From contig JAPKZO010000006.1 in NCBI GenBank assembly GCA_026393755.1, forward strand, positions 124,001 to 188,000: a DNA stretch of 64,000 nucleotides, written 5' to 3'. The notes beneath the pieces were generated by a model, which was given only the letters and a program-made list of their open reading frames with translations, had not been told where the DNA came from and did no database searches. Source of the DNA: Acidobacteriota bacterium. Lineage in GTDB: Bacteria > Acidobacteriota > Vicinamibacteria > Vicinamibacterales > JAKQTR01. Position numbers and translations under genes: made by a program. Positions within the stretch are counted from its first letter, which is position 1; each line of letters begins with the position of its first letter. Below, piece after piece: positions 3,032-18,381 of the stretch.

Positions 3032-3415
3032 TCAGATCGGCAGCAGCTTGGCGACAAGCGCCAGCAGTTCCCCGGTATCGACCGGCTTGCTGAGATAGCC
3101 GTCCGGAGGCGGCACGTGCCTGCGCGACGAGATGAACGTACGGAAGTCGTCGGACACGCCGGTGATGATGATCACGGGAATCGTGTGCCATGCCTCGGTC
3201 TCACGCAGATCGCGATAGCACCGAACGCCGGAGGTTTCCGGCATCGTGATATCCAATGTGATCAGGTCGGGGCGGTGCTTCTTGACCAGGTCGATGGCCT
3301 GTGCCCCGTTCCCGGCGGTGATGGTAGCGTACCCATTGTCTTCCAGCAGGCTGGAGAAATAGGTCACCGTGTCCGCGTCGTCATCGATGATCAGAATGGT
3401 CTTCTTGTCGGTCAT
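3032..3415 (-). CDS. Receiver-only response regulator
   Basis: A single CheY-like receiver domain of 127 residues, starting at the ATG at 3415, one base past the stop of the upstream kinase (3417). Acidic residues Asp11-13, phospho-acceptor Asp55 (LITLDITMP) and Lys110 (GYLSKPVD) are all present. There is no DNA-binding or enzymatic output. It carries a distinctive C-terminal stretch, an ITG...R..HVPPP.GY..KP pattern, shared with the receiver at 17986 and, more loosely, with the receiver fused to the CCG protein at 4944. It is the last gene of the minus-strand redox set. Its partner is most likely the adjacent kinase, and its target is probably a protein rather than DNA (inference). Confidence 0.9.
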   Translation of the reverse strand: MTDKKTILIIDDDADTVTYFSSLLEDNGYATITAGNGAQAIDLVKKHRPDLITLDITMPETSGVRCYRDLRETEAWHTIPVIIITGVSDDFRTFISSRRHVPPPDGYLSKPVDTGELLALVAKLLPI

Positions 3416-3416
3416 C

Positions 3417-4865
3417 TCAGTGTGTCCCAAGGGCGGTGACGGCGCCGGGTTCGGCGGCGCTTCCGGATCTGGAGTTCGGAATGGCGACCACAAAACGCGT
3501 GCCTGTGCCAGGTGTTGACTCAATCTGGATAGAGCCTCCATGCGCCGTTGCGATCTTGTTCGCCACGAACAGGCCGAGCCCCGTGCCTTCGGAGCCCTTC
3601 GAGGAGAAGAACAGGCTGAAGGCCTTCTCCCGGGTCTCCTGTTCCATCCCGATGCCGTTGTCTTCGATCTCGAATCCGGTTGAACGATCTGTCTGACCGG
3701 TCCGGAGCGTCACGCGGTGCACCGGCTTCTTCACGTCGAGGCGGCATGCGTCGAACGCGTTCTCCGTCAGGTTCACCAGCATCGCCCGCACGGCCTTCTC
3801 GTCCGCCTCGAACGTGCCTGTCTCCGGGGCGACCACCCGGGTGAACTCGATACCAAGCTCAGTGGCCTTGTCCCGCATGGCCTCGAACACTTCGTTGACG
3901 ACGGCCTCGGCCGACACCGGCTTCCAGTCAGGTTCGCGGTCCTTCGCGTAATAGAGAATATCCAGGACCATGTTGCGGACCCGCTCGATGTTCCGTTCGA
4001 CGATGCCCCATCCCTTGGCCACACGCGCTTGATCCCCTGCGGCGAGCCCCTTGTTGACCAGGTACACTCCGCCATTCAGCCCGTTGAGCAGGCCTTTGAT
4101 CCCGTGGGAGATGGACCCGATGAGCAGCCCGATGGAGGCGAGCTGGGATTGGAGCCGGCGGATCTGAGTGATGTCGGCGCTCATTTCCATGATCCGGTCG
4201 ACCTTGCCGTCGGCGCCAACGATTGGCGTCGTGTGGACGAGGACGTTGATCGGGCGACCGTCCCGCGACGTCACGACCTCCTCATGGACGTGCAACTGGC
4301 CGTCGTCGAAGGTCTCCCGGACGGTGCACGGGAAACACTCCTCGGTTCGATGCTTGTAGATCTCGTAGCACTTGCACCCGAGGAAGTCGCCGAACGTCTC
4401 GCGATGCAGGCGATTCGCGTCGACCATGTTCAGGTCACGATCCTGGATGGAGATGTAGCAGGGCACTTCCTCGAACAGCCTGCTGTAGTGCGCCTGGCTG
4501 TTGCGGAGCTGGTTCTGGAGGCGCTTCACATCGGTGATGTCGGTGGACATCTCCATCACGCCCGTGATGTGGCCCTCTTCGTTGCGGATGGGCTCGGTGT
4601 ACACGATCACCGATACCTCCGTCCGGTTGAGGCAGGTGACGCGTTCCTCGCCGCTGTGAACCTGGCCGTCGCGGAACGTCTGTTCAACCGGGCAGACCTC
4701 GCACTTCTCCGCGCGGTGTTTGTAGACCTGGTAGCAGTATCGCCCTCGGTAGTCACCGAAGGCTTCGCGAAACCGCCGGTTGGCCGCCATCACCTTAAAG
4801 TCACGGTCCTGCACGGTGACGTAGCAGGGCATCGCGTCGAAGTACTGCTCGTAGGGAAGATCCAT
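3417..4865 (-). CDS. Soluble double-PAS histidine kinase with cysteine-motif PAS domains
   Basis: This 482-residue kinase has no membrane segment. PAS1 covers about residues 8-115 and PAS2 about 125-235. The dimerisation region follows with phospho-acceptor His254 (GSISHGIKGLLN), then a HATPase domain with N-box NLTENAFDA, DNGIGM and GTGLGL motifs. Each PAS carries the same cysteine pattern: Cys44, Cys55, Cys58, and Cys166, Cys177, Cys180, i.e. C-x10-C-x2-C after a CY.(V/I)YKHR stretch. This could bind a metal cluster or form disulfides, making it a cytoplasmic redox sensor (inference). It lies between the CCG-receiver fusion and the receiver-only protein, and it is closely similar in layout to the broken kinase at 15629-17502. 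Confidence 0.92.
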   Translation of the reverse strand: MDLPYEQYFDAMPCYVTVQDRDFKVMAANRRFREAFGDYRGRYCYQVYKHRAEKCEVCPVEQTFRDGQVHSGEERVTCLNRTEVSVIVYTEPIRNEEGHITGVMEMSTDITDVKRLQNQLRNSQAHYSRLFEEVPCYISIQDRDLNMVDANRLHRETFGDFLGCKCYEIYKHRTEECFPCTVRETFDDGQLHVHEEVVTSRDGRPINVLVHTTPIVGADGKVDRIMEMSADITQIRRLQSQLASIGLLIGSISHGIKGLLNGLNGGVYLVNKGLAAGDQARVAKGWGIVERNIERVRNMVLDILYYAKDREPDWKPVSAEAVVNEVFEAMRDKATELGIEFTRVVAPETGTFEADEKAVRAMLVNLTENAFDACRLDVKKPVHRVTLRTGQTDRSTGFEIEDNGIGMEQETREKAFSLFFSSKGSEGTGLGLFVANKIATAHGGSIQIESTPGTGTRFVVAIPNSRSGSAAEPGAVTALGTH

Positions 4866-4943
4866 CGCTGCCTTTCGGCCTGTGGCTCGGTGTTCGTCTG
4901 CCCGGACGACGCTGCCTCTCGAACGGTCCCCGCGGGGGGCAGC

Positions 4944-6692
4944 CTAGTGCACCTCCAGGATCTTCCGCACGTTCAGGAGCAGGGTCTCGTCGTCCACGGG
5001 CTTGTCCAGGTACCCCTCGGGCGGAAAGACCCCGCGGTCGTAGATCAACCGGCGCAGTTCCGGCCGGCCGGTGATGATGCACACCCGGATGCCCGCCAGA
5101 TCGGGGTCCTTGCGCAGCGTCTCGAAGACCTTGCCGCCGTCGGTGCCAGGCATCGAGAGGTCCAGCGTGATCAAGTCCGGCTTCTCCCGGCGCGCGATCG
5201 CGATGGCGGAATCCCCGTCGCTGGCTTCGAACACGCTCGCGCCATTGTCCTGCAGCACCGCGCTGTAGAAGACCAGCACATCCGGCTCGTCGTCCACGAC
5301 CAGGATCCGTCGGCCCGCGAGGCTGAGCTGAGCCCGTGGTGCGACGGGCTCGGGTTCGACCACGGCGGGGAGCGCGACCTTCGTCGGTACGACGATGGCA
5401 TTGGCAACCAGGTTGACGAGCTGGGTGACCTGCATGCCGAGCTTGTAGTGGCGGATGCAGTCGGTCAGGCCGTCCACGCAGTTGTGACATGACGTCACCA
5501 CGACACTGGCTCCGGTCGCGGCCAACTGGTCGGCCTTGACCTTGGCCGACTTCAAACGTCGGGGCGTGTACTCACTCATCGACATGGCACCGCCGCCGCC
5601 GGTGCAGCAGTAGTTCTCGGACCGGTTCGGGTACATCTCGCGGAAGTCGGTGACGACCAGACTGAGCAGCTCGCGCGGTTCCTCGAACAAGCCGCAGCTT
5701 CTGGCGTTGTTGCACGAATCGTGGAAGGTGACCGGCGTCGTGTTGCGGGACTTGTCGACCTTGATGCGGCCTTCCTTGATGTACCGCAACATGGTGTTGA
5801 CCGAGCTCTCCATCACGAACGGGACATCCATGCCGGCCCAATTCGGGCCCTCGCACCGCGTCGACCGATACCCGTGGCCGCACTCGGAGATCACCAGCTT
5901 CCTGCCGCGCAACTCGGTGACCTTGTCGTACAGGCGCCGCGCCACGGCGCCGCCGAGGTCGTCGTCGCCGGAGAAGAGCCCGAAGTTCGTCATGTCCCAG
6001 CCCTCGCTCGGCATGGTCCACTTCTCACCGGCCAGGTGGAAGATCTTCGCCGCGTCGGCAATGGTCCGGGGGTCGTACTTGACCTCGCGCGGATTGATGG
6101 AATACACGACGTCGGCGTCCATGACGTCCACCGGGATCACCGCGGCCGGGTCGTTCAGTTCGCCGCTGAGTTCCTCCGACATCCACTCGAGCGTCTCGAG
6201 GTACTCCTCCTTCAGCACGCCCATCTGGTTGCCGATCTCCCATTGATCCTTGCTGACGACGGCGACGCCTTCCGGCATCACGCCGACCGACACCAGGAGG
6301 CCGCGCATCATGCGGTTGACAACGGCGAAGTCGACGCCCATCGGACAATTGATCGTGCATCGCCGGCAGTTCGTGCACTTACCGAAGGCGATGTCCTTCA
6401 GTTCTTCCAGTTCCTCGTCGGTCGAGACCGTCGACGCGCCCACCCACCAGGGGAAGACCCGGCCCGTCCAGTCGAAGTGCCGCTTGAAGATCTTCCGGAC
6501 GCGGTCAGCCTTGTAGGCGGGCGCATACGTCGGGTCGTCGGGATTGGTCAGCACGTAGTGACAGGAATCGGTGCACATGCCGCAATGCACGCAGGCCGTC
6601 AGGGAGCCCACCACCTGCCGGTTGAGCTTCTTCGCCATGCGCTCGAGGAGCTTGTCGGCCTTGTGCGAGCGGGGTTGGTAACTCGTGGACAC
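4944..6692 (-). CDS. HmcF/TmcB-like CCG iron-sulfur protein fused to a C-terminal receiver domain
   Basis: A 582-residue fusion. Residues 30-120 hold two [4Fe-4S] motifs (Cys34, 37, 40, 44 and Cys106, 109, 112, 116). Residues about 265-415 hold a CCG-type domain with Cys326, the Cys361-Cys362 pair and Cys401/Cys404, the pattern of the non-cubane cluster in HdrB/D, DsrK and HmcF proteins. After a Pro/Val-rich linker (about 438-458), residues 459-582 form a receiver domain with Asp510 (LITLDLSMP) and Lys563. The family part is a cytoplasmic subunit of quinone-linked redox complexes. The fused receiver suggests that phosphorylation acts directly on electron transfer (inference). The membrane partner is the next gene upstream (6761). 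Confidence 0.9.
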   Translation of the reverse strand: MSTSYQPRSHKADKLLERMAKKLNRQVVGSLTACVHCGMCTDSCHYVLTNPDDPTYAPAYKADRVRKIFKRHFDWTGRVFPWWVGASTVSTDEELEELKDIAFGKCTNCRRCTINCPMGVDFAVVNRMMRGLLVSVGVMPEGVAVVSKDQWEIGNQMGVLKEEYLETLEWMSEELSGELNDPAAVIPVDVMDADVVYSINPREVKYDPRTIADAAKIFHLAGEKWTMPSEGWDMTNFGLFSGDDDLGGAVARRLYDKVTELRGRKLVISECGHGYRSTRCEGPNWAGMDVPFVMESSVNTMLRYIKEGRIKVDKSRNTTPVTFHDSCNNARSCGLFEEPRELLSLVVTDFREMYPNRSENYCCTGGGGAMSMSEYTPRRLKSAKVKADQLAATGASVVVTSCHNCVDGLTDCIRHYKLGMQVTQLVNLVANAIVVPTKVALPAVVEPEPVAPRAQLSLAGRRILVVDDEPDVLVFYSAVLQDNGASVFEASDGDSAIAIARREKPDLITLDLSMPGTDGGKVFETLRKDPDLAGIRVCIITGRPELRRLIYDRGVFPPEGYLDKPVDDETLLLNVRKILEVH

Positions 6693-6760
6693 GCTGCTCT
6701 CCGGTCTATGCCGTTCGGGTGACGGTGCGTCGCATCGGCGGCGCAGTGGCGCGGTGCCGT

Positions 6761-7456
6761 CTACGGGGTCCTCACGGAACGAGGCCGGGGGCCTCGTTGG
6801 ATCGGAAAGACACCTCGGTGGGTCAGCGTCCGGCCCAGATAGAAACGCGTGAAGGGGTAGTAGAGGTAGTGCGAGATCTTGCTGAACGGCACGTACAACA
6901 GGAAGAAAGCCGTCAGGAAGAAGTAGACGAGCCGCACCGTCTCGAGGGCGTCCACGCGGTTCGGCACCGCCAGGACGGCGAACAGGAACCAGATCGCGAG
7001 CAGCGTCAGGGAGAAGTAGTCATCTGGCGTGCTGATCACCCGCATCGTCCTGTTGGACACGCGGCGGACCAATCGCGCGACCGACACGAGGAAGGCCGCG
7101 CCTATCATGATCTGGAGCGTGAGCACGAGCCATGAAGCGTCGAGCCAGTGCGGGCCGTAGGGAATGATGAACGACAGTGCAATGGCGGCCACCACGCCGA
7201 GATGGAAGACGACGAACTGCGCGTACAGCAGGATGTGCGTGCGCGTACTTTCCATGGCCAGCGGCATCGCGACGTTGAGCCACGAATAGAGGATGCCCCG
7301 TCGCATGGCTGGCGGTGTAGGGCCCGTGGGGGCCTGACGGTCCCGACCGGCCTTGAAGCGTAGCAGCCAGGCAATCCGGAGTGCGTAGACACACGCCATG
7401 ACCAGCAGGGCCGTTTCCTGGAGCCGGTGTTCGGCGAAATGGAGGAGATCACTCAT
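6761..7456 (-). CDS. HmcE/TmcC-like membrane cytochrome b subunit
   Basis: A polytopic membrane protein of about 231 residues with segments near MACVYALRIAWLL, FVVFHLGVVAAIALSFII, LVLTLQIMIGAAFLV, LTLLAIWFLFAVLAV and FFLTAFFLLYVPFSKISHYLYYPF. The final KISHYLYYPF stretch and overall layout resemble the NarI-like subunits of Hmc/Tmc/Dsr complexes, which pass electrons between a cytoplasmic HmcF/DsrK-type protein and quinone via b haems. The ATG at 7456 has AGG just upstream; a GTG at 7468 is an alternative giving 235 residues. It precedes the CCG-receiver fusion, forming a two-subunit Tmc-like module that lacks its own cytochrome and NrfD genes. Confidence 0.82.
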   Translation of the reverse strand: MSDLLHFAEHRLQETALLVMACVYALRIAWLLRFKAGRDRQAPTGPTPPAMRRGILYSWLNVAMPLAMESTRTHILLYAQFVVFHLGVVAAIALSFIIPYGPHWLDASWLVLTLQIMIGAAFLVSVARLVRRVSNRTMRVISTPDDYFSLTLLAIWFLFAVLAVPNRVDALETVRLVYFFLTAFFLLYVPFSKISHYLYYPFTRFYLGRTLTHRGVFPIQRGPRPRSVRTP

Positions 7457-7492
7457 ATCCTGTCTCACGCGCGGTTGGTGTCGGCGGCGTCG

Positions 7493-8065
7493 TCACGACG
7501 ACGCCGGTGTCATCGCCGCCAGCCTGGCTTCGAACGCCTTGTACTCTCGAGTGTCGTTTGCGCAGATGATCACTTCCCGAATGCCCGTGGTCGTTGAGAG
7601 GTATGCCGTCAGCGTCGACAGCATCACCTCCGCGCACACCGGAAGAGGAACACCGTAGAACCCGGCCCCCATCGGGGGAAACGCGATCTGAGCGATCCCC
7701 CGATCGTCCGCCAGCTTGAGGGCGTTCACCATCGTCGCGCGCAGCTTCTGCTCAAGGTCCGGCTCCTGGAACACCGGACCCACGGCATGGACGATGAACC
7801 TGGCGTTCAAGGTGCCGGCCGACGTGACCACGGCGCCGGTGACCTGAACCGATCCGATCTGGTCGAGTTCCTCCTTGATCGTTGCACCGCCCCTTCGGGC
7901 GATCGCATTGCCGAAGCCAGACCCGAGCGCGAGGTTGGGCCTGGCGTAGAAGACGATGGCTTCGGCGTCCAATGTCGTGATGTCGGCCTTGACAAGCCGC
8001 ACCACGCTCTTGTGAACGGGGATGACGCCCGTCGTGGGGCGATTGACGCTGCTGGTGTCAGCCAA
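7493..8065 (-). CDS. Macro-domain protein (ADP-ribose binding)
   Basis: A macro domain: ADITTLDAEAIV near the start, then a glycine-rich loop GSGFGNAIARRGG, HAVGPVF, and the phosphate loop PPMGAGFYGVPL, ending with VIICANDTREYKAFEARL. Such domains bind or hydrolyse ADP-ribose derivatives. The usual NAAN segment is replaced by FYARPNLALG, so the catalytic Asn of MacroD-type hydrolases is not evident. The frame extends upstream to 8209, but the likely start is TTG at 8065, overlapping the TGA (8058-8060) of the preceding small gene; this suggests coupled translation. Placing an ADP-ribose reader in a redox-complex operon is unusual. Confidence 0.78.
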   Translation of the reverse strand: MADTSSVNRPTTGVIPVHKSVVRLVKADITTLDAEAIVFYARPNLALGSGFGNAIARRGGATIKEELDQIGSVQVTGAVVTSAGTLNARFIVHAVGPVFQEPDLEQKLRATMVNALKLADDRGIAQIAFPPMGAGFYGVPLPVCAEVMLSTLTAYLSTTTGIREVIICANDTREYKAFEARLAAMTPASS

Positions 8066-8282
8066 CGTTCGGCTCCTTGGTGTCCCGGATACCGGCATTC
8101 CTGTGGACCTGCATCTCCTGCTCGGCAAGGTTGCGGAGCTTGTAGGCCGTGTCGCGGAGCGTTCCGAACAGGACACCGCACCCGGTATCCAGACGCGTCT
8201 GGTCGCCATGGTCGGCCAGGAGCATCATGTCTCGCGACAACCGGAGCACTTTGAGGATGTTCTGATTGCAGTCCCGTGCCAC
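8058..8282 (-). CDS. Small conserved-looking protein, first gene of the sigma-54 operon
   Basis: A 74-residue soluble, charged, mostly helical protein, with a GCGVLFGTLRDTAYKLRNLAEQE stretch split by a glycine turn and several Met/Leu heptads. No named family is recognised. GTG at 8282 is preceded by GGAG with six bases spacing, whereas the upstream TTG at 8303 lies inside the inverted repeat and has no ribosome site. The gene is first after the sigma-54 promoter at 8319-8334 and overlaps the macro-domain gene start, so both are probably translated together. Low-complexity features are absent and codon use matches the neighbours, which argues that it is real. Confidence 0.65.
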   Translation of the reverse strand: MARDCNQNILKVLRLSRDMMLLADHGDQTRLDTGCGVLFGTLRDTAYKLRNLAEQEMQVHRNAGIRDTKEPNVG

Positions 8283-8318: not shown

Positions 8319-8334
8319 AGCATGCGACGTGCCA
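8319..8334 (-). promoter_or_regulatory. Sigma-54 (RpoN) promoter
   Basis: On the minus strand the sequence reads TGGCACG, four bases, then ATGCT. The -24 element is a perfect match to TGGCACG and the -12 element keeps the essential GC, with GG and GC separated by exactly ten bases. It lies about 37 bases upstream of the first start codon and between the sigma-54 activator gene and the operon, the expected arrangement. Predicted transcription start is near 8307-8309. A possible upstream activator site is ACGACA (8488-8493) with TGTCGT (8513-8518). Confidence 0.75.
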
Positions 8335-8549: not shown

Positions 8550-10310
8550 TTACAGGTCTGTATTGTGGAACACCGGGTGACCATCAAGGAAGCGATACAG
8601 GGTAGTCCGACTGACGGCAAGCAGCCGGGCCGCGTGCGCCCGGCTGCCCCCCGCCCTGCTGAGCGCGTCCGCCACACGTTCGACGTCGAGCTTACCTGGA
8701 CGTCCCGCCTTCGTGGCGATCGGATTCTTCTGAAGCGGCACGATCTCCGGGGGAAGATGCTGGAGATCAAGCGCATCGCCGTGGCACTTGATCATGCCGA
8801 ACTGAACGGCGTTGCCGAGTTCTCGGACGTTGCCCGGCCACGCGTAACTTTCCAGGCGGGCGCGAGCCGCCGGCGTGACGTGGGTCACGCGTTTCGCGGT
8901 GTCACTGGAGAACTTGTCGAGGAAGTGTTCGACGAGCAGGGGAATGTCACTCGCGCGTTCGCGCAACGGCGGGACCGTCAGCGGTACCACGGCAAGACGG
9001 TAGTACAGGTCCTCGCGAAACAGACCCTGTTGGGTCAGGCGTTTCAAGTCCTTGTTGGTGGCGCAGATGACTCGCACGTCTGCCTTGAGGTTCCGTTCGC
9101 CGCCGACCGGCATGAACAGCTTGTCCTGCACCACTCGCAAGAGCTTGACCTGCATGGCCGAGGAGATCTCGCCGATCTCGTCGAGAAAGATGGTCCCGCC
9201 CTCGGAGAGCGCGAACCGTCCCTTCCGATCGTGGATCGCGCCGGTGAATGCGCCCTTGACGTGCCCGAACAGCTCGCTTTCCAACGTGCCCTCGGGCAGC
9301 GCGCCGCAGTTTACCGGGACGAACGGCCCTGCGCCGCGCCGGCTCAACTGGTGCAGGGCCGTGGCCACCAGCTCTTTGCCCGTGCCGCTCTCGCCCTGAA
9401 TCAGAATCGGCACGTTGATGTCGGTCAGCTCGCGGATCGAATCAAACACGCGCTGCATCAACGGGTGGCGCCCGACAATGCCGCAGAACCCCCGCGTATG
9501 CTCCAGCCGCTCACGCAGATGAACCACCTCGGTCACGTCGCGAAAGACCACCAGCGCACCGGTGACATGATGCTCAGGAGTCTCGGTGGTCACCACCGAC
9601 ATCTGGAGGTCGCGCCGTTCGCCGCGTTTGGTGATGAAGGTGCGGGGGTAGCCCAGCCTCGAGCGTGCGGCATGGCGCTGGTCGGTGCAGAACGAGCAGT
9701 CGCCGCCGCAGAACCGGTCGAGGAAGACATCGTGGCAGTCGCGGCCGATGACGTCGCCGTACTCGCGCTCCGTGATCTGTTGTGCCGCCCGGTTGAAGAA
9801 GTAGATCCGGCGATCCATATCGTGTGCCAGGACGCCGTCCGTCAGATTGTCGAGCAGCGATCCCAGCGTGATGCGGACCTGGCGGATCGATTCGAGAAAC
9901 CCGAACTGAAAGAGGCCTTCCACACGATGGCGGATATCGTCCCTGACCTGCCGGAACACCTCGTCAGCCGGGCCGGTCGTTGCCGGGTCCTGTGTGGCGG
10001 GATCGACAAGCGGCCAGTGCACACGTGCGGGCGAACCGGGCAACGTCGGGCACGATTCCCGGGAGTGGTTGCACAAGGTCACCACGACGTCGAATGGTTC
10101 ATATCGGATTTCGTCGAGTGCAAGGGCCACCCGGGGCGCAATCTCGATCCCGAGCTCCGCCATCACCCGAGAGGCGGATGGCGCCACATCCTGATGAACG
10201 TCTCCGGCGCAGGTGATTTCCATGTCTTTCGGCGAAATCCTGCGCGCAAACGCCACAGCCATCTGGCTGCGCCCCGCGTTGCCGCTGCATGCGAAGAGGA
10301 TGCGGAACAT
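8550..10310 (-). CDS. Sigma-54 activator with N-terminal arsenate-reductase-fold (LMW-PTP) domain and PAS domain
   Basis: A 586-residue regulator. Residues 1-135 form an ArsC/LMW-PTP fold with the P-loop ACSGNAGRSQ (Cys8, Arg14) plus Cys80 and Cys87. The spacings 72 and 7 equal those of Cys10/Cys82/Cys89 in thioredoxin-coupled ArsC of Staphylococcus, and RVHWPLVDP and VFRQVRDDI match the same family. Residues about 145-270 form a PAS with Cys192, Cys201, Cys205 and Cys208. An AAA+ domain follows with GESGTGKE, GAFTGA and the R-finger region, then a Fis-type HTH at the end (ARLLAVSRTTLYRFL). It probably activates the promoter at 8319-8334, and possibly the divergent operon at 10839. The signal, either an oxyanion or thiol redox state, is inferred. 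Confidence 0.9.
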   Translation of the reverse strand: MFRILFACSGNAGRSQMAVAFARRISPKDMEITCAGDVHQDVAPSASRVMAELGIEIAPRVALALDEIRYEPFDVVVTLCNHSRESCPTLPGSPARVHWPLVDPATQDPATTGPADEVFRQVRDDIRHRVEGLFQFGFLESIRQVRITLGSLLDNLTDGVLAHDMDRRIYFFNRAAQQITEREYGDVIGRDCHDVFLDRFCGGDCSFCTDQRHAARSRLGYPRTFITKRGERRDLQMSVVTTETPEHHVTGALVVFRDVTEVVHLRERLEHTRGFCGIVGRHPLMQRVFDSIRELTDINVPILIQGESGTGKELVATALHQLSRRGAGPFVPVNCGALPEGTLESELFGHVKGAFTGAIHDRKGRFALSEGGTIFLDEIGEISSAMQVKLLRVVQDKLFMPVGGERNLKADVRVICATNKDLKRLTQQGLFREDLYYRLAVVPLTVPPLRERASDIPLLVEHFLDKFSSDTAKRVTHVTPAARARLESYAWPGNVRELGNAVQFGMIKCHGDALDLQHLPPEIVPLQKNPIATKAGRPGKLDVERVADALSRAGGSRAHAARLLAVSRTTLYRFLDGHPVFHNTDL

Positions 10311-10838: not shown

Positions 10839-12254
10839 ATGCCGGGCGCACCACTCACCGAAGCCGAACGCGCACGCGCGTTCGCCCTGCCGAAAAAGCC
10901 GGCCGTCATCGAGCGCCAGCGCTTGGCCGTCCGATACCACGTTGAGGACTTCGACGTCCGAGACCGCCCCAGGCGGTTTCTCGAGGCCTTCGCCGCCATC
11001 CTGAAGCACACGAACTACCGGGTGGCCCTCGACCACTACGCGCGCATCAGCACGAAGTGCGCCCGGTGCGCCGTCAAGTGCCAGATCCATGAGGCCACCG
11101 GCGACGATCGCGACATTCCCTGCTGGCGCTCGGAGCTGCTGCTGGCGGTCTATCGCCGGCACTTCACCATCTCGGGCATCCTGCGCGGACGGATCCTCGG
11201 GGACCCCGGACTGACCGATGAGACCGTCGCCGAAATGGCGGACACCTTCTACGACTGCACGGCGTGCCGGCGCTGTCATTTCGAATGCCCGATGGGCGTC
11301 GATCATGGCCTGGTGACGCATCTCGGGCGCTATGTACTCTCGGAGATCGGCATCGTGCCGCGTGCGCTGGCGGTCAGCACCCGCGAACAGCTGCTCGGCG
11401 CGAGCGGGAACACGTCGGCGATCCCCGTGCCCGCCCTACTGGACAGTCTCGAATTCCTCAGCGAGGAGATGCAGGACGAGAAACACATCGCCATTCCGTT
11501 CCCGGTCGATCAGGAAGGCGCCGAGTACCTGTTCCTGCCGGCGGTCTCAGACTTCATCATGGAGGCCGACAGCCTGATGGGGATCGCGGCGGTGTTCCGC
11601 GCGACCGGCGACAGTTGGACGATCGGGACGGGCTATTTCGACGGGATCAACTACGGGCTGTTCTACAGCGACCAGGTCCTGGAGCACGTGCTGCGGAAGG
11701 TGCGGGCCGAAGCCGAGCGGCTCAAGGTCAAGAAGATCCTCATCGGCGAGTGTGGCCACGCCTCACGGTCGGCGAAGCACTTCTACCCGATGTTCTGCGG
11801 CGGCGCCGAAGCGCTCCCGGTGCTGAACATCATGGAATACACGCATCGGGCGTGGCGCGAGGGGCGGCTCCGGCTCAATCCGGACGTGGTGACCGAGCGC
11901 GTGACGTACCACGATCCGTGCAATGTCGCCCGGCCGGGATGGATCGTGGAGCAGCCACGCGAGCTGCTGAAGGCCTTCTGCCGCAACTATGTGGAGATGA
12001 CCCCGAATCGACGCGACAATATCTGCTGCGGCGGCGGGGGCGGCACGGTCTCGATCGACGAGATCCGGCCCTATCGCACCGCGATCGGCGGCCGGGTCAA
12101 GGCCGATCAGATTAGGACCACCGGAGCGGAGTACTGCGTGGCGCCCTGCGCCAACTGCAAGAAGCAGCTCCGGGAACTGATGGAGGATCAGGGGATGGAC
12201 TGCAAGATTGTGGGGCTCCACGACCTGATCTACAAGGCCCTCGTGCTCGACTGA
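10839..12254 (+). CDS. HmcF/TmcB-like CCG iron-sulfur protein
   Basis: A 471-residue cytoplasmic electron-transfer subunit. Cys74, Cys77 and Cys81, plus Cys95, suggest a first, slightly irregular [4Fe-4S] site; Cys140, 143, 146 and 150 form a regular second site. The C-terminal half carries a CCG domain: DPCNVARPG, then ICCGGGGGTVS, then CVAPCANCKKQ. It aligns along its length with the enzyme part of the fusion at 4944, including WTIGTGYFDGINYGLFYS against the equivalent GWDMTNFGLFS, but has no receiver. It is first in a plus-strand operon and is followed 20 bases later by the HmcE-like gene. The family role is exchange between a cytoplasmic redox partner and the membrane complex. Confidence 0.9.
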   Translation: MPGAPLTEAERARAFALPKKPAVIERQRLAVRYHVEDFDVRDRPRRFLEAFAAILKHTNYRVALDHYARISTKCARCAVKCQIHEATGDDRDIPCWRSELLLAVYRRHFTISGILRGRILGDPGLTDETVAEMADTFYDCTACRRCHFECPMGVDHGLVTHLGRYVLSEIGIVPRALAVSTREQLLGASGNTSAIPVPALLDSLEFLSEEMQDEKHIAIPFPVDQEGAEYLFLPAVSDFIMEADSLMGIAAVFRATGDSWTIGTGYFDGINYGLFYSDQVLEHVLRKVRAEAERLKVKKILIGECGHASRSAKHFYPMFCGGAEALPVLNIMEYTHRAWREGRLRLNPDVVTERVTYHDPCNVARPGWIVEQPRELLKAFCRNYVEMTPNRRDNICCGGGGGTVSIDEIRPYRTAIGGRVKADQIRTTGAEYCVAPCANCKKQLRELMEDQGMDCKIVGLHDLIYKALVLD

Positions 12255-12274
12255 CGCCCGCAGGAGGAACAAGC

Positions 12275-13015
12275 GTGGAAGCCTGGATCGTGTTCGCGCG
12301 TGGCCCGCTATTCCGGTTGTGTTTCTCGATCATGGTGCTCGGCCTCGCGCGCGTGCTGTGGCTGACGGGGATCGGCATCATTGAGGCCTACGGGCGGAGT
12401 GACGACCGCGCGCTGGCCTACCGCGAGATCTTCCGCCAGACGCTCGGATGGGCGTTGCCGGTGGGTCGGGCGGGGAGGGCGCGTCCGCTCTACAGCCTGA
12501 CCTCGGTCCTGTTCCATCTGGGGCTGCTGCTCGTGCCCCTGTTGCTCCAGGCGCATGTCCGGCTCTGGCAATCCGTGATCGGCATCGCGTGGCCGGTCCT
12601 GCCCGCCGCGGCCGCCGACGGCCTCACCCTCCTGATGCTGGTGACGGCAGTGGGCCTCTTCGCCGGGCGCCTCGCCGACCGGCGATCCCGCGCCATCAGC
12701 CGGCTGCAGGACTACGTGTGGCCGCTGCTGCTGGCCGTGCCCTTCGTGAGCGGCTTCGCGTGCGCGAACCTGACGCTCGCGCCCCTGACCTACCAGGCCG
12801 GCATGCTGCTGCACCTCCTGTCGGCCGACGCCGTTATGTTCCTGCTCCCGTTCACGAAGATCACCCACTGCGTGCTTCAGCCCTTGTCGCAACTGGTGAC
12901 CGCCGTCGCCTGGAAGTTCGTGCCCGAGGCCGGCGACCGCGTCGCCGCCACGCTCGGGTTCGCCGATCGGCCGAGCTGGGCTGAGAGATCCCGGCTCGGT
13001 GGGCCGCATTCCTGA
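12275..13015 (+). CDS. HmcE/TmcC-like membrane cytochrome b subunit
   Basis: A polytopic protein of 246 residues starting at GTG 12275 behind GGAGG. Hydrophobic segments occur near FSIMVLGLARVLWLTGIGII, SVLFHLGLLLVPLLL, GLTLLMLVTAVGLFA, VWPLLLAVPFVSGFA and MLLHLLSADAVMFLLPFTKITHCVL. The closing LLPFTKITHCVLQP stretch matches the corresponding stretch of the protein at 6761 and of NarI-like Hmc/Dsr subunits; conserved histidines would ligate b haems. It lies between the HmcF-like and ferredoxin-like genes, so it is the quinone-side anchor of the complex. Confidence 0.85.
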   Translation: MEAWIVFARGPLFRLCFSIMVLGLARVLWLTGIGIIEAYGRSDDRALAYREIFRQTLGWALPVGRAGRARPLYSLTSVLFHLGLLLVPLLLQAHVRLWQSVIGIAWPVLPAAAADGLTLLMLVTAVGLFAGRLADRRSRAISRLQDYVWPLLLAVPFVSGFACANLTLAPLTYQAGMLLHLLSADAVMFLLPFTKITHCVLQPLSQLVTAVAWKFVPEAGDRVAATLGFADRPSWAERSRLGGPHS

Positions 13016-13036
13016 TTCCGAGGAGACCCGAGTCCG

Positions 13037-13789
13037 ATGAACGCCGCCATCCTTACCGACACCACGCTGTGCATCGGCTGCAACGAGTGCGCATTGGCGT
13101 GCAAGAAGGTCAACAAGCTCGAGGCCGACGTGCCGCGTCGATGGGATCTCCAGGATGGGCTCTCGGCGCGAAACTGGACCTCGGTGGTGCGCGGCCCCGA
13201 CCAGTCGTTTGTGCGCAAGCAGTGCCGGCATTGCCTCGAGCCGGCGTGTGTGGCGGCGTGCCCCGTGGGAGCCCTGTCGAAGACCGAGACCGGCGCCGTG
13301 GTGTACGACGGCCAGAAGTGTCTGGGGTGCCGGTACTGCATGATGGCGTGCCCGTACAACATCCCACGGTACGACTGGGACCAGCGCGTGCCCTACGTCC
13401 GCAAGTGCGTGTTGTGCTACGACCGCATCAAGACGGGCGGTCAGCCTGGCTGCACGGAGGCCTGTCCGACGAAAGCCACAATCTTCGGCGACCGCGACGT
13501 CCTGCTGGCCGAGGCCCATCGTCGAATAGCCGAGCACCCGGAAAAGTACATCGACAGGGTCTGGGGAGAAGACGAGATCGGCGGCACCTCGGTCGTCTAC
13601 ATCTCGAACGTCGACCTGTCGTTCCTGGCCCACGGGATGGCGTTGGGGCGCGTGCCGATTCCCGAGCGGACGTCGATGGCCATGGAGGCCGTGCCGTTCG
13701 CGTTCACCGGGGTCGTGGCCGTGATGGCCGGCGTGCACTGGGTCGTCGAGCGGCGGATGAAACGGCAGTCGGAGGACCACGATGAGTAG
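13037..13789 (+). CDS. Four-cluster ferredoxin subunit (HmcB/DsrO-like) with C-terminal anchor
   Basis: A 250-residue polyferredoxin with four cysteine groups: CIGCNECALAC, CRHCLEPACVAACP, CLGCRYCMMACP, and CVLCYDR with GCTEACP. This is the layout of the NrfC/HybA/PhsB family that pairs with NrfD proteins. A single membrane helix lies near residues 218-238, followed by a basic and then acidic tail. Unlike many HybA/DsrO proteins it has no Tat signal at the N-terminus, so it either faces the cytoplasm or is exported with a partner. The stop overlaps the start of the NrfD-cytochrome gene by eight bases, which supports one complex. Confidence 0.92.
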   Translation: MNAAILTDTTLCIGCNECALACKKVNKLEADVPRRWDLQDGLSARNWTSVVRGPDQSFVRKQCRHCLEPACVAACPVGALSKTETGAVVYDGQKCLGCRYCMMACPYNIPRYDWDQRVPYVRKCVLCYDRIKTGGQPGCTEACPTKATIFGDRDVLLAEAHRRIAEHPEKYIDRVWGEDEIGGTSVVYISNVDLSFLAHGMALGRVPIPERTSMAMEAVPFAFTGVVAVMAGVHWVVERRMKRQSEDHDE

Positions 13790-15632
13790 GGCGCGCAGAC
13801 TGAAGTTCGTCCTGTGGGCGATCGTGGGGCTCGCCGCCGCCGTCGGGACGACCCGCATGCTGGTCGGGCTCGGCGCCACCAGCCACCTGTCGGACGCCAC
13901 GCCCTGGGGGCTCTGGATCGGATTCGACGTGATGGCCGGCGTCGCCCTGGCCGCTGGCGGCTTCATCATCACGGCGTCGGTCTACATCTTCAAGCTGGAG
14001 CGTTTCCATGACGTGGTCCGTCCCGCGGTCCTGACGGCGTTCCTCGGCTATCTCGCCGTGGTGGTGGGCCTGCTGTTCGACCTTGGTCTGCCGTGGAACA
14101 TCTGGCACATGATCGTGTTCTGGAACACGCGCTCGCCGCTTTTCGAGGTCGGCTGGTGCGTGATGTTGTACCTGACGGTGCTGGCCCTGGAGTTCTTCCC
14201 GGTGCCGGCCGAGCAGTTCAGTGCGCTCGCGAAGATCCGGCGCGTGCTCCTCAAGTGGCGGCTGCCGCTCGTGATCGCCGGCATCGGCCTGTCGACGCTG
14301 CACCAGTCGTCGCTCGGATCGCTGTTCCTGGCGATGCCGTACCACGTGCACCCGTTGTGGTACTCCCCGTGGCTGCCCGTGCTGTTCCTCGTCTCCGCGA
14401 TCGCCCTCGGCCTGCAGATGGTCATCGTCGAGAGCCACTTCACGGCGTACGTGTACCGGCGCAAGCCCGAAACCGGGGTACTGGAGGGGCTGACCACGCC
14501 CGCTCGCTGGATCCTGCTCGCCTACCTCGCGTTGCGCTTCGGCGACCTCGCCGCCCGCGGGAACCTCCGGCTGTTGACCGGAGGGGAGTGGCAGGTGAAG
14601 ATGTTCTGGTTCGAGGTGGCCGTGATGGCCGGGCTTCCGATCGTGCTCCTGTCGATTGGGCGCGTCCGCCGCTCGCGCGCAGGCCAGTTTGCGGCGGCCG
14701 GGCTCGGTGTCTTCGGCGTCGTTCTCAATCGGGTCGACGTCGGCGGACTGGTCCACACGGGCCGCGGCGAGGCGCTCTACGTCCCGGCCTGGACCGAGTT
14801 CGCCGTCAGCGCCGGCGTGGTGGCCGCGGCGGTGCTCGCCTTCCTGTTCGCCGTCGAGCGGTTTGCGGTCTGGCACGATCGTCCCGCCGATCCCGATGCG
14901 GATCCCCTCAAGCTTCCCGAGTTCGACAAGGTCGGCACGACCTGGCTCGGTGTGCCGGCCGTGGCAGATCGGACCGTGTATTCCCTCGTGTTCGTCGTCG
15001 CGGCCGCCGTCGGGTTTGCCCTGCTGCCGGCGTCGGCGGCGGCCGGCCGCGGTGTCGAGCCAGGGCCTGCCCACAGAGCGCGCGGCGGAGAGATTCTGTG
15101 GATCGACGGCAACCTGGACGGCAACGGTGTCGCCTTTCCCCACGACGCGCACGAACAGCGGGAGGGCGGCAAGGAGTCGTGCCCGCGGTGCCATCACATG
15201 AACCTGCCCCGCGACCGGGCATCCGGCTGCTTCGAATGTCACCGGGACATGTGGCAACCGACCGACGCGTTCGGCCACGAGCGGCACGCCTCCCCCACAG
15301 GTGGCCGCCTCTCCTGCGCGACCTGTCACCCTTCGGCCGAGCCCCGGAGTGCGTCCACCGCGAAGACCTGCGTGACGTGCCACAAGGACCTGATTCCAGC
15401 GGGGGCGTTCATCAAGGTGAACAACGGGTACCGCGCATCCGGATACGTGCGGGCCATGCACGCCCTCTGCATCGACTGCCACACGCATGTGATGGCGGCC
15501 CGCAAGAAGCCCAATCTCGGCCGGTGCACCAACTGCCACCGGGAGCGGCGCAGCTTCGTCGATGCGCCCGACCTCGCGGTCCGCGAGCGCATAGGGGCCA
15601 GTGTCGTGCTGCCCCAGGGTGTGGCGAGATGA
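13782..15632 (+). CDS. NrfD-type membrane protein fused to a hexaheme cytochrome c domain
   Basis: A 616-residue fusion. Residues 1-365 form an NrfD/HmcC/PsrC-type protein with about nine membrane helices, including the conserved PWGLWIGFDV entry and LHQSSLGSLF. A further helix at about 398-420 is followed by a domain with six CxxCH haem motifs: Cys467, 483, 512, 530, 563 and 582. FPHDAH near 452 could give distal ligands. In Hmc and Dsr complexes the cytochrome is usually a separate subunit (HmcA, TmcA, DsrJ); here it is covalently joined, giving a path from periplasmic haems to quinone. The ATGA at 15629-15632 couples it to the kinase gene. Confidence 0.92.
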   Translation: MSRARRLKFVLWAIVGLAAAVGTTRMLVGLGATSHLSDATPWGLWIGFDVMAGVALAAGGFIITASVYIFKLERFHDVVRPAVLTAFLGYLAVVVGLLFDLGLPWNIWHMIVFWNTRSPLFEVGWCVMLYLTVLALEFFPVPAEQFSALAKIRRVLLKWRLPLVIAGIGLSTLHQSSLGSLFLAMPYHVHPLWYSPWLPVLFLVSAIALGLQMVIVESHFTAYVYRRKPETGVLEGLTTPARWILLAYLALRFGDLAARGNLRLLTGGEWQVKMFWFEVAVMAGLPIVLLSIGRVRRSRAGQFAAAGLGVFGVVLNRVDVGGLVHTGRGEALYVPAWTEFAVSAGVVAAAVLAFLFAVERFAVWHDRPADPDADPLKLPEFDKVGTTWLGVPAVADRTVYSLVFVVAAAVGFALLPASAAAGRGVEPGPAHRARGGEILWIDGNLDGNGVAFPHDAHEQREGGKESCPRCHHMNLPRDRASGCFECHRDMWQPTDAFGHERHASPTGGRLSCATCHPSAEPRSASTAKTCVTCHKDLIPAGAFIKVNNGYRASGYVRAMHALCIDCHTHVMAARKKPNLGRCTNCHRERRSFVDAPDLAVRERIGASVVLPQGVAR

Positions 15633-16054
15633 CCAGTCGGGTCCGCGATCGGCTCGATGCGCTGCTGGGGCCAGGCCTGTTCGAACTGGTGCCCTTCAAC
15701 GTCGCCGTCATCGATCGGGACTTCCAGGTGGTGGCCGCCAACAGGAACTTCGAGGAGTACTTTGGCGAATGGCGCGGCGCCAGGTGCTACGAAGTCTGCA
15801 AGAACGCCAGCGGCGAATGCTCGTGCTGTCAGGCGCTGGCCACCTTCGAGGACGGCCGCGTCCGGGTATCGGACGAGACGGGCGTCGACCGGCACGGCCG
15901 CGCCTGTCACTACGTCGTGCACATCGCGCCGTTGAAGGATGAGCACGGTGTGGTCGAGTTCGTCATCGAGATGACGACGGACCTGACCGAGACACGGCAC
16001 TGGCGCGCGAATACGATCTGCTGTTCGACCGCGTCCCGTGCTCCGTCTCGGTGA
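15629..16054 (+). pseudogene. N-terminal PAS fragment of a frameshifted histidine kinase
   Basis: ATG at 15629 overlaps the NrfD-cytochrome stop (ATGA). The frame encodes a Cys-motif PAS: VPFNVAVIDRDFQVVAANRNF, then Cys53, Cys57, Cys64, Cys66 and Cys67, and ends with MTTDLTETR. After about 15990 it becomes nonsense (RANTICCSTAS) and stops at 16054. The correct continuation, AREYDLLFDRVPCSVSVIDRDF, is read in the next frame. The linker between the PAS domains is about eight residues shorter than in the sister kinase at 3417, consistent with a deletion of 3n+1 bases or a single-base error. Confidence 0.75.
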
Positions 16055-17502
16055 TCGACAGGGACTTCCGGGTCATCCGCGCCAACGAGCATCTGCGTGC
16101 GACGTTCGGCGAGACCGAAGGACGACGGTGTTACGAGGTCTACAAACGGCGCAAGACGCCCTGCGTCAGCTGTCCCGCCAGCCTGACCTTCGAGGACGGC
16201 GGCGATCACGTGGCCAGCCAGTTTGGCGTGCGCCGCGACGGATCACCCGCGCACTATGTGGTGACCACCTCACCGCTGTCGCGGGGCAGGAACGAGGTGG
16301 CCCACGTCATCGAGATCTCGACCGACGTGACCGACATCCGCCGGCTCGAGGATACACTCCATCGGACCCGGCACTTCTACGAGAGCCTCGTGCACAACTC
16401 CGCCACCGGCATCCTGGCGCTGGACGCGGCCGGCGGCACGCGATTGCTGAATCCGGCGGCGCGGGCGCTGCTCGGCCTCGCGGCAAACAGCAGCCCCTCT
16501 CCCCGACGCCTGCGCGAGATGTTGCCGCCGGAGTTCTTCGAGGGATCGCCAGCGGCCGAGTTCGAACTCACGCTCCCAGAAGTGCTCGTCCGGGCCGTCG
16601 GCGGGGAAGAGGTGCCGGTTCGGTTCTCGGCCGTCAATCTCAGGAGCCATCGGCAGGCACTCGGGCGCGCGGCGTTCATGCAGGACCTCCGGCCATTAAA
16701 ACAGCTGGAGAAGGAGAAGCTCGAGGCCGAGCGCCTGGGGGCAGTGGGGCAGACGGTCGCTGGGCTGGCCCACACGATCAAGAACCTGCTGATGGCGCTC
16801 GAAGGCGGGATGTACCTGCTCGAGAGCGGCCTGACCAAGGCGGACGTGCCTCGGATCACTGAAGGCTGGGAAATCCTCCACCGCAATCTCGGCAAGACCA
16901 CGGCGATGGTGCGCGACTTCCTCAGCTTCGCCAAAGGACGTCTTCCGGAGTTCCGGATGACCAATCCCAACGATGTCGCCCGCACGGTCGTCGACCTCTA
17001 CCGGGAGGCGGCCCGCCAGCAGGGTGTCGAGCTCGTCCTCGATGCGGCGGCCGACGTGGCGCCGGCGCCGCTCGATCCGGCCGGGATCGAGTCGTGCCTG
17101 ACCAATCTCGTGTCGAACGGCATTGATGCGGCCCTGCTGCGCCGGGAACCCGGGGGCCTGGTGACCGTCCGGACGCGCAGCCGTTCGTCCGACGTGGTCT
17201 ATGAAGTGGCCGACAACGGCTGCGGCATGGACTCGAAGCTCAAGGAACGGGTGTTCACGACGTTCTTCACCACCAAGGGAAACAAGGGGACCGGACTCGG
17301 CCTGCTCACCACACGCAGGATCGTCCAGGAACACGGGGGCCGGATCGAGACCGAGTCGACGGTGGACCAGGGGTCGGTGTTCCGCATTCTGCTGCCGCGT
17401 GCCCGCCTGGAGGCGCTGGCGAAAGCCGCCGGCACGGCGGAGGCGGAGGGCCTCGGAGGGAAATATGAACCAGGAAACCCCGATGCGCGTGCTGATCGTT
17501 GA
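16051..17502 (+). CDS. Double-PAS histidine kinase, downstream part of a frameshifted gene
   Basis: The open frame begins at GTG 16051, though homologous sequence (FDRVPCSVSV) extends before it in the same frame. It carries PAS2 with the cysteine pattern CYEVYKRRKTPCVSCP, PAS3 near residues 105-215, a dimerisation helix with the phospho-acceptor in VAGLAHTIKNLLMALEGG, and a HATPase with NLVSNGIDA, DNGCGM and GTGLGL. The kinase core closely resembles that of the gene at 3417. If the frameshift is real, re-initiation at 16051 could still make a kinase lacking PAS1. It overlaps the next receiver gene by 38 bases. No membrane segment is present. Confidence 0.85.
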   Translation: MIDRDFRVIRANEHLRATFGETEGRRCYEVYKRRKTPCVSCPASLTFEDGGDHVASQFGVRRDGSPAHYVVTTSPLSRGRNEVAHVIEISTDVTDIRRLEDTLHRTRHFYESLVHNSATGILALDAAGGTRLLNPAARALLGLAANSSPSPRRLREMLPPEFFEGSPAAEFELTLPEVLVRAVGGEEVPVRFSAVNLRSHRQALGRAAFMQDLRPLKQLEKEKLEAERLGAVGQTVAGLAHTIKNLLMALEGGMYLLESGLTKADVPRITEGWEILHRNLGKTTAMVRDFLSFAKGRLPEFRMTNPNDVARTVVDLYREAARQQGVELVLDAAADVAPAPLDPAGIESCLTNLVSNGIDAALLRREPGGLVTVRTRSRSSDVVYEVADNGCGMDSKLKERVFTTFFTTKGNKGTGLGLLTTRRIVQEHGGRIETESTVDQGSVFRILLPRARLEALAKAAGTAEAEGLGGKYEPGNPDARADR

Positions 17503-17989
17503 CGACGAACAGGATGTTCGCAACTACCTCCAGGGCGCTCTGGCAGATGCCGGGTTTGCCGTGGAGACGGCCACCGACGGTCTCGATGCGATGGCCAAGG
17601 TGCGTGCGCACGCGCCCGATGCCATCTCCCTCGATCTGGTGATGCCGCGCCACTCCGGAGCCAGGTTCTACCGGGACCTGCAGAAGGACCCGCGTCTGTC
17701 CAGAATCCCGGTTCTCATTGTCACCGGCCACGCGCGGGACGAGCTGGGCGGACCGGATTTCGAGGAAATGACCTTGCGCGGACCCGGCGTGTACATCGAG
17801 AAGCCCGTCAACCCCGGCACCTACGTGGCGGCGATCCGCGCGCTTCTGAAACTGGAGACCCCATCGCCGCCGGGACCCACTGACCTGCGTCGCACATTGG
17901 AAGACGCGCTCGCCAGCGCCGACCATGACGCCCTGCAGCGGGCGCTGGCCGCGCTGCAGAAACCGTCGAGACCGGAGGGACACGAATGA
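17465..17989 (+). CDS. Receiver-domain protein with C-terminal helical extension
   Basis: A 174-residue protein. The receiver domain (about 7-127) has an acidic pair in VLIVDDEQD, the phospho-acceptor in ISLDLVMPRHSG and the lysine in YIEKPVNP. After a Pro-rich linker (TPSPPGPTD) there is an Ala/Leu-rich helix of about 35 residues with no DNA-binding character. ATG 17465 has GGAGGG upstream, but the ATG at 17483 (MRVLIV) is also plausible. It overlaps the kinase gene by 38 bases and the next receiver gene by four, so all three are probably made together. Confidence 0.87.
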   Translation: MNQETPMRVLIVDDEQDVRNYLQGALADAGFAVETATDGLDAMAKVRAHAPDAISLDLVMPRHSGARFYRDLQKDPRLSRIPVLIVTGHARDELGGPDFEEMTLRGPGVYIEKPVNPGTYVAAIRALLKLETPSPPGPTDLRRTLEDALASADHDALQRALAALQKPSRPEGHE

Positions 17990-18381
17990 ACCCGCAGAAG
18001 ACGATTCTAGTGGTCGAGGACGAAACCGACGAAGTCGCCTACCTGTCCGCCCTGTTCAAGGACAACGGGTTCGGCGTGCTCTCAGCGAGCAACGGTCGCG
18101 AGGGCTTCCTGATGGCGAAGACACACCATCCCGACGCCATCACCCTCGACATCACGATGCCTGAGGAATCCGGCGTACGGATGTTCCGTGACCTTCAGGA
18201 GGACGCTTCGACCGCAAACATTCCGGTGGTGATCATCACGGGCGTGTCGCACGAGTTCAAGCGCTTTATCGAGACGAGGAAGCACGTGCCACCGCCGGCA
18301 GGCTACTTCGACAAACCGCCGGATCGCCAGCAACTCCTGGCCAAGATCCGCGAAGTGGTGGGCGCGGCCGACGCCGGATGA
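17986..18381 (+). CDS. Receiver-only response regulator
   Basis: A CheY-like protein of 131 residues with ILVVEDETDE, phospho-acceptor in ITLDITMPEESG and lysine in GYFDKPPD. It is the nearest relative in the window of the regulator at 3032: both share DITMPE.SGVR, PV.IITGVS..F..FI and R.HVPPP.GY. It has no output domain. Its ATGA overlap with the preceding gene (17986-17989) implies coupled translation. It closes the Hmc-like operon, mirroring the minus-strand set, which also ends kinase then receiver. Confidence 0.9.
   Translation: MNPQKTILVVEDETDEVAYLSALFKDNGFGVLSASNGREGFLMAKTHHPDAITLDITMPEESGVRMFRDLQEDASTANIPVVIITGVSHEFKRFIETRKHVPPPAGYFDKPPDRQQLLAKIREVVGAADAG

Follow-up and report, generated by a model that had tools for sequence, protein, structure and literature searches.

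A conserved fusion of a receiver domain to a CCG-type electron-transfer subunit suggests direct phosphorylation control of sulfur respiration

The control of dissimilatory sulfate reduction has been studied mainly at the level of transcription. In PleD, CheB and similar response regulators with enzymatic outputs, the receiver controls an enzyme and not DNA binding, and we know of no response regulator with a redox-enzyme output of the kind described here. The fusion considered below differs from PleD/CheB-type regulators in that its receiver is C-terminal and its partner is an iron-sulfur electron-transfer subunit. Among the related redox systems, DsrMK is held to reduce the DsrC trisulfide, and Tmc may feed DsrC, according to two publications (PMC6018796; PMC4215793).

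The protein encoded at 4944–6692 on the minus strand of the window (the whole stretch of 64,000 nucleotides analysed) resembles TmcB and HmcF in having two [4Fe-4S] clusters and a CCG domain, in being encoded next to a NarI-like membrane partner and in belonging to the same larger branch of the tree; HmcF (350 bits) and TmcB (316 bits) are its best NCBIfam matches. Unlike these proteins, it carries a C-terminal receiver, its module lacks a multihaem cytochrome, and a macro-domain protein and a kinase are its constant partners. With DsrK of DsrMKJOP it shares the cofactor architecture, the dsr operon context and a NarI-type partner, but DsrK stands outside the fusion clade, and the fusion scores 238 bits against the DsrK cut-off of 400. 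The nearest receiver family is that of the DVU0259/DivK-type single-domain regulators, from which the fused receiver differs by its covalent link to the electron-transfer subunit.

Based on the open frame, Pfam, alignment and a structural model, the gene encodes a CCG-receiver fusion protein of 582 aa with a GTG start. The plus strand of 4944–6692 contains an internal stop. The ferredoxin region (Fer4_8, residues 31–120, E 5e-11) includes two [4Fe-4S] motifs, Cys34/37/40/44 and Cys106/109/112/116. It is accompanied by a CCG domain (residues 321–405, E 1e-10; PF02754, 42 bits), the cysteines of which are Cys271, 327, 333, 362, 363, 402 and 405. The original prediction had recognized both elements with their expected cysteines, and the Pfam matches and the invariance of these residues bear it out. 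A linker of about 20 residues (~437–458) leads from the CCG domain to the receiver (~459–580), where Response_reg matches residues 463–574 (PF00072, E 2.3e-18; 66.8 bits against a gathering score of 30.2). The receiver-coding DNA (residues 459–582) lies at 4947–5318 on the minus strand. The receiver contains a phosphorylatable Asp511, Lys564, the acidic pair Asp467/468, Thr541 and Tyr561. A full receiver at the C-terminus had been predicted and is confirmed by the Response_reg match and the fold, but its key residues, given as Asp510 and Lys563, are each one position higher.

An AlphaFold model was built from 55 sequences (mean pLDDT 82.5, pTM 0.60). In this model, residues 462–580 form a regular five-stranded alternating beta/alpha receiver with blocks mostly at 88–98 pLDDT, and the linker at 441–453 is disordered (pLDDT about 41). 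Because of this pTM and the low linker pLDDT, the relative placement of the domains is uncertain, and therefore docking of the receiver on the CCG core is not visible in the model. According to Foldseek, the redox half matches EtfD, a CCG protein, and the receiver half matches DivK, RpaA and RR468.

Assignment of the protein to a described equivalog was rejected since every curated cut-off was missed: TmcB (NF045724, 315.8 bits, cut-off 735), HmcF (NF045711, 349.8 bits, cut-off 750), DsrK (NF045796, 238.4 bits, cut-off 400) and, for the receiver part, DVU0259 (NF045717, 75.7 bits, cut-off 160), the latter being the best among the receiver families. In a check for plasmid origin, no plasmid record covered 80% of the sequence.

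To find homologues, 84,980 species were scanned, each represented by a single genome. As a result, 129 related stretches were obtained, and the best 80 were kept. In these best 80 of 129, the match extends into the receiver with 65–85% identity to the window fusion, although a few are interrupted by a contig end or an assembly frame break. The carriers are largely metagenome-assembled genomes from about a dozen phyla, including Acidobacteriota, Zixibacteria, Planctomycetota, Calditrichota, Gemmatimonadota, Ignavibacteriota, Elusimicrobiota, Poribacteria and others; further carriers are records named Deltaproteobacteria or Syntrophaceae. Two orthologues from the same order, but from other families, carry complete fusions (86% and 76% identity), and a divergent fusion with 59% identity (L159) was found beyond the best 80. 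The joining of two genes by a sequencing error, which the original prediction had named as a danger, is excluded because the fusion recurs in 80 loci of separate genomes and in the same-order orthologues.

Across 81 sequences, the redox part is 80–83% identical to that of the window fusion, compared with 65% for the receiver and 28% for the linker. All 15 cluster cysteines are essentially invariant: the eight of the ferredoxin motifs (two CxxCxxC..C) are present in every sequence covering them, and those of the CCG motif are kept in 81 of 81. The receiver site is equally well preserved, with D467 found in 79/80 sequences, D468, D511 and T/S541 in 80/80, and K564 in all 79 without a gap at that position.

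In the maximum-likelihood tree of the redox part, the fusions, L159 among them, all fall into a single clade (SH-aLRT 96). Outside this clade lie DsrK, its paralogue K2, the protein encoded at 10839 in the window, and the HmcF-type and related unfused proteins. Given this single clade, the fusion most likely arose once in the sequences compared and has been retained since. The closest unfused CCG relatives show 42% identity, and two of them stand in operons of dsrC-like, TmcC-like and CCG genes. The HmcF-like neighbour at 10839–12254 (471 aa) indeed lacks a receiver, as had been stated; however, it is only 32% identical to the fusion and outside the clade, and at such a distance it cannot prove that a domain was added. 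The addition is real because the orthologues carry the fusion.

The HmcF-like gene belongs to a second operon (10839–18381, plus strand) with HmcF-, HmcE-, HmcB- and HmcC-like genes, the HmcC-like protein being fused to a multihaem cytochrome part. Downstream of it lie a Cys-PAS kinase gene of its own and genes for two free receivers. The kinase, a PAS-PAS histidine kinase at 15629–17502 (plus strand), is split into two frames (15629–16054 and 16051–17502); from about 15,985 onwards the homologous sequence is read in the other frame, which indicates an assembly frameshift or a broken gene.

In almost all loci, the genes around the fusion stand in the following order: macro-domain protein, NarI/TmcC-like cytochrome b, fusion, PAS-PAS histidine kinase and free receiver, with median intergenic gaps of 11–34 bp in the conserved module. 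Neighbours were counted only in loci long enough to judge. The membrane cytochrome b (6761–7468, minus strand) matches TmcC (NF045723, 3e-12, under the curated cut-off) and has two invariant histidines, 85 and 196, in the 231-aa form starting at 7456; its TmcC-like counterparts occur in 71/76 testable loci. The macro-domain gene (7493–8065, minus strand; PF01661, 5e-25) lies upstream of cytochrome b in all 73 testable loci. A gene for a periplasmic, TmcA-like multihaem cytochrome was found neither among the genes at 3032–8282 nor in the conserved module. Macro-domain hydrolases usually carry NAAN. The consensus from 73 related loci retains the ligand-loop glycines and GxGFYG and has YAR.DL at the NAAN position, so its ligand, ADP-ribose-like or another nucleotide, may be bound but not cleaved.

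Downstream of the fusion, a soluble PAS-PAS histidine kinase is encoded at 3417–4865 (minus strand), for which Pfam, alignment and gene adjacency point to a candidate cognate kinase. The original prediction had singled out this gene, rightly, as a kinase of one type directly adjoins the fusion in 66/69 testable loci. His254 is invariant, and each PAS domain bears a C-x10-C-x2-C triad (Cys44/55/58 and Cys166/177/180), all six cysteines being invariant in 67 sequences. Motifs of this type, unnamed in Pfam, are common to the PAS domains of the window kinases at 3417, 15629 and 16051 and represent a candidate Fe-S, Zn or thiol redox site. The last gene of the module (3032–3415, minus strand) encodes a free DVU0259/DivK-like single-domain receiver that, based on Pfam, NCBIfam and alignment, has an intact phosphorylation site; it scores 104.2 bits against NF045717, under the curated cut-off of 160. 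A free receiver is present in 58/69 testable loci, and in the other 11 the fusion persists without a same-strand copy. Extra receivers, 50–59% identical to the fused one, were seen beside the module in two loci, L091 (7898-8803, minus strand), where two stand in tandem within one 301-aa protein, and L092 (6344-7332, minus strand).

Free DVU0259-type receivers are likewise encoded in or near some unfused TmcB/HmcF loci in the phylum of L040 (directly in L149, nearby in L142, L156 and L158). The dsrK paralogue K2 has an adjacent free receiver in L030, L083 and L086. This gene-neighbour evidence ties DVU0259-type receivers to CCG subunits.

Just upstream of the window lies a dissimilatory sulfite/sulfate reduction island (locus L018, G000:C6:105000-119800) containing dsrB, a dsrD-like gene, a DsrL-like NAD(P)-binding oxidoreductase gene, dsrC, dsrM, dsrK and the genes following it, sat and a dsrMK-like pair; hem genes come after the island. 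The dsrB, dsrC, dsrM, dsrK and sat genes all score above the model cut-offs, and the genome has its own true DsrK (733 bits). Among the 80 carrier genomes, 69 have dsrB (67 above the cut-off). In six of the 11 carriers without it, aprA is present, and five have neither gene; some of these 11 genomes may be incomplete. Within the own order, dsrB occurs in 10/162 genomes but in 3/3 fusion carriers, for which a hand calculation gives a random-draw chance of about 2 in 10,000. The fusion is not essential to the pathway since seven of the ten dsrB genomes of this order lack it. Furthermore, in L040, L043 and L063 (Syntrophaceae) and L046 (Zixibacterium), the module forms part of the dsr operon, with dsrC immediately in front of it and dsrM/dsrK behind; the L046 operon also has a dsrD-like gene. 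The fusion family is widespread, tied to the Dsr pathway and much larger than one gene.

The alpha4-beta5-alpha5 surface is the classical dimer and partner face of receivers, and alpha1 is their usual kinase-recognition helix. In 60 loci having both a fused and a free receiver, conservation was compared position by position. The fused receiver was more conserved (mean +0.42 bits), with the excess reaching +1.21 bits in alpha4, +0.78 in beta5 and +0.84 in alpha5. Alpha4 was the top window of its length, and the alpha4-beta5-alpha5 excess gave a permutation p<1e-4, which serves as a guide only because receiver positions are not independent. Alpha1 was the element in which fused and free receivers were most alike relative to other receivers (50% vs 35%), a contrast weakened because some of the control receivers, taken from the loci analysed, are close to the same subfamily. 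From alpha2 to alpha5, the fused receivers resemble the free ones no more than they resemble other receivers. The PPEGYL.KP region, before and at the lysine, is common to both. The simplest reading of these alignments would be one kinase, two receivers and two outputs. The output of the fused receiver is most likely a fixed surface, on its own redox core or complex, but conservation of the alpha4 face could equally reflect homodimerization or another protein.

It had also been proposed that control would proceed with no DNA-binding step. This is half right, because the operon contains a free receiver as well, and a sigma-54 activator is encoded in 13 loci and in the window. The latter gene (8550–10310, minus strand; Pfam LMWPc-PAS-AAA) lies upstream of the module, a position conserved in the 13 loci and kept in several phyla. 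Its input is unusual: an N-terminal low-molecular-weight phosphatase-like (LMWPc) domain followed by PAS. Where the activator is present, the operon begins with a small conserved ORF of 74 aa (8058–8282, minus strand), which has no Pfam or NCBIfam match and has homologues at a like position in most activator-bearing loci. A sigma-54 (-24/-12) promoter-like site, TGGCACGTCGCATGCT, is located 37 bp before this ORF (8319–8334, minus strand). It is the only one-mismatch site among 17 sigma-54-type sites in the window; as the whole-window total of sites with up to two mismatches is below chance expectation, the case for TGGCACGTCGCATGCT lies in its position and recurrence. Sites with at most one mismatch were found in 4/13 activator loci (5/14 with the window), compared with 0.6% of random 300-base pieces, and similar sites stand at a like distance in several relatives. 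A scan for sigma-70 promoters and terminators gave none above chance. Considering the free receiver and the sigma-54 activator and promoter-like matches, transcriptional control of the module probably exists as well.

The invariant receiver residues, the neighbouring kinase and the constrained output face favour a functional phosphorylation site with an effect on the redox subunit. The explanation that we consider best, and hold with modest confidence, is a direct gate: a DsrMK/TmcBC-like electron-transfer subunit linked to DsrC would be switched by phosphorylation of its receiver. Together with the NarI/TmcC-like cytochrome b, the fusion would form a two-subunit membrane module, of which it would be the catalytic CCG component (HdrD/DsrK/TmcB-like) on the cytoplasmic side. 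In dissimilatory sulfite/sulfate reduction, this module would transfer electrons between the quinone pool and a disulfide or trisulfide on a sulfur carrier. Gene context and homology to DsrMK and Tmc make DsrC the most likely carrier; by analogy, the role in DsrC reduction would extend from DsrMK and Tmc to the fusion module. The adjacent PAS-PAS kinase would phosphorylate Asp511 of the fusion, perhaps in response to a redox or metal signal, as its cysteine triads suggest. Phosphorylation would then alter the alpha4-beta5-alpha5 face, presumably docked on the CCG core or on a fixed partner, and through it either electron transfer or the assembly of the complex would be raised or lowered. The kinase would also serve the free receiver of the operon, whose output would differ.

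The module could have a substrate other than the DsrC trisulfide, working in reverse (sulfide oxidation) or on a persulfide carrier linked to the macro-domain protein, with the switch selecting direction or route. This proposal shares the switch with the gating explanation but assumes another substrate. The macro-domain partner is constant, and the genome has a full dsrMK and a paralogous pair besides, so the fusion module would be an additional, switchable route; moreover, both pathway directions are weighed for dsr-carrying Acidobacteria in PMC6018796. We nevertheless regard it as unlikely, given that the module adjoins dsrC in dsr operons, one of them (L046) with a dsrD-like gene.

A different possibility is that sensing lies with the CCG subunit, whose redox or turnover state would set the rate of phosphate uptake or loss by the fused receiver; the latter would be a redox-dependent sink tuning phosphorylation of the free one by the common kinase. 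The single kinase locus serving two receivers with similar kinase-facing alpha1 helices fits this, as do the intact phosphorylation site of the free receiver and the transcriptional arm indicated by the sigma-54 activator and promoter-like site. However, a pure sink needs no specially conserved alpha4-beta5-alpha5 face, and the free receiver lacks a DNA-binding output and is absent from the same strand in 11/69 loci that keep the fusion, which makes this improbable. That same constrained face, being the classical dimer/partner surface, together with a flexible linker, would suit a docking or assembly module which dimerizes the subunit or tethers the kinase or membrane partner, phosphorylation serving localization or stoichiometry and not catalytic gating. 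A purely structural role, however, does not call for invariant phosphorylation residues, yet essentially all 80 sequences retain them, and we give this reading a similarly low probability. As for an artefact of sequencing or assembly, or an inert remnant of a domain, the only point in favour is that the window genome and most of its relatives are metagenome assemblies. Against it are the 80 loci from separate assemblies, a mean receiver identity of 65% and the essentially invariant active site. This reading was rejected on the recurrence and active-site conservation, its probability being negligible.

We found no published description of a receiver-CCG fusion in the open-access literature on dsr, Tmc/DVU0259, Acidobacteria and Desulfovibrio, and searchable surveys of dsr gene clusters do not mention a module with a constant macro-domain protein. 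The locus is a new, conserved combination of known parts. Sequence comparison establishes the fusion and its apparent single origin, shows the sites to be intact, and documents the operon, the link to Dsr and a distinct constraint on the putative output face. More broadly, we tentatively propose a widespread module of sulfate/sulfite reducers, in which a Cys-PAS kinase phosphorylates the receiver within a DsrC-reducing CCG subunit, so that the last electron step of sulfate reduction could be turned on and off, or change direction, quickly. In classical Desulfovibrio-type reducers, the free DVU0259-type receivers encoded close to Tmc/Hmc genes might act likewise in trans. The findings suggest that this part of sulfur respiration is controlled directly by phosphorylation in these bacteria, beyond gene expression alone. 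If this is true, a receiver covalently attached to an electron-transfer subunit would constitute a direct signalling input into a respiratory chain, and the fusion suggests a testable role for the orphan single-domain receivers encoded near Tmc and Hmc genes.
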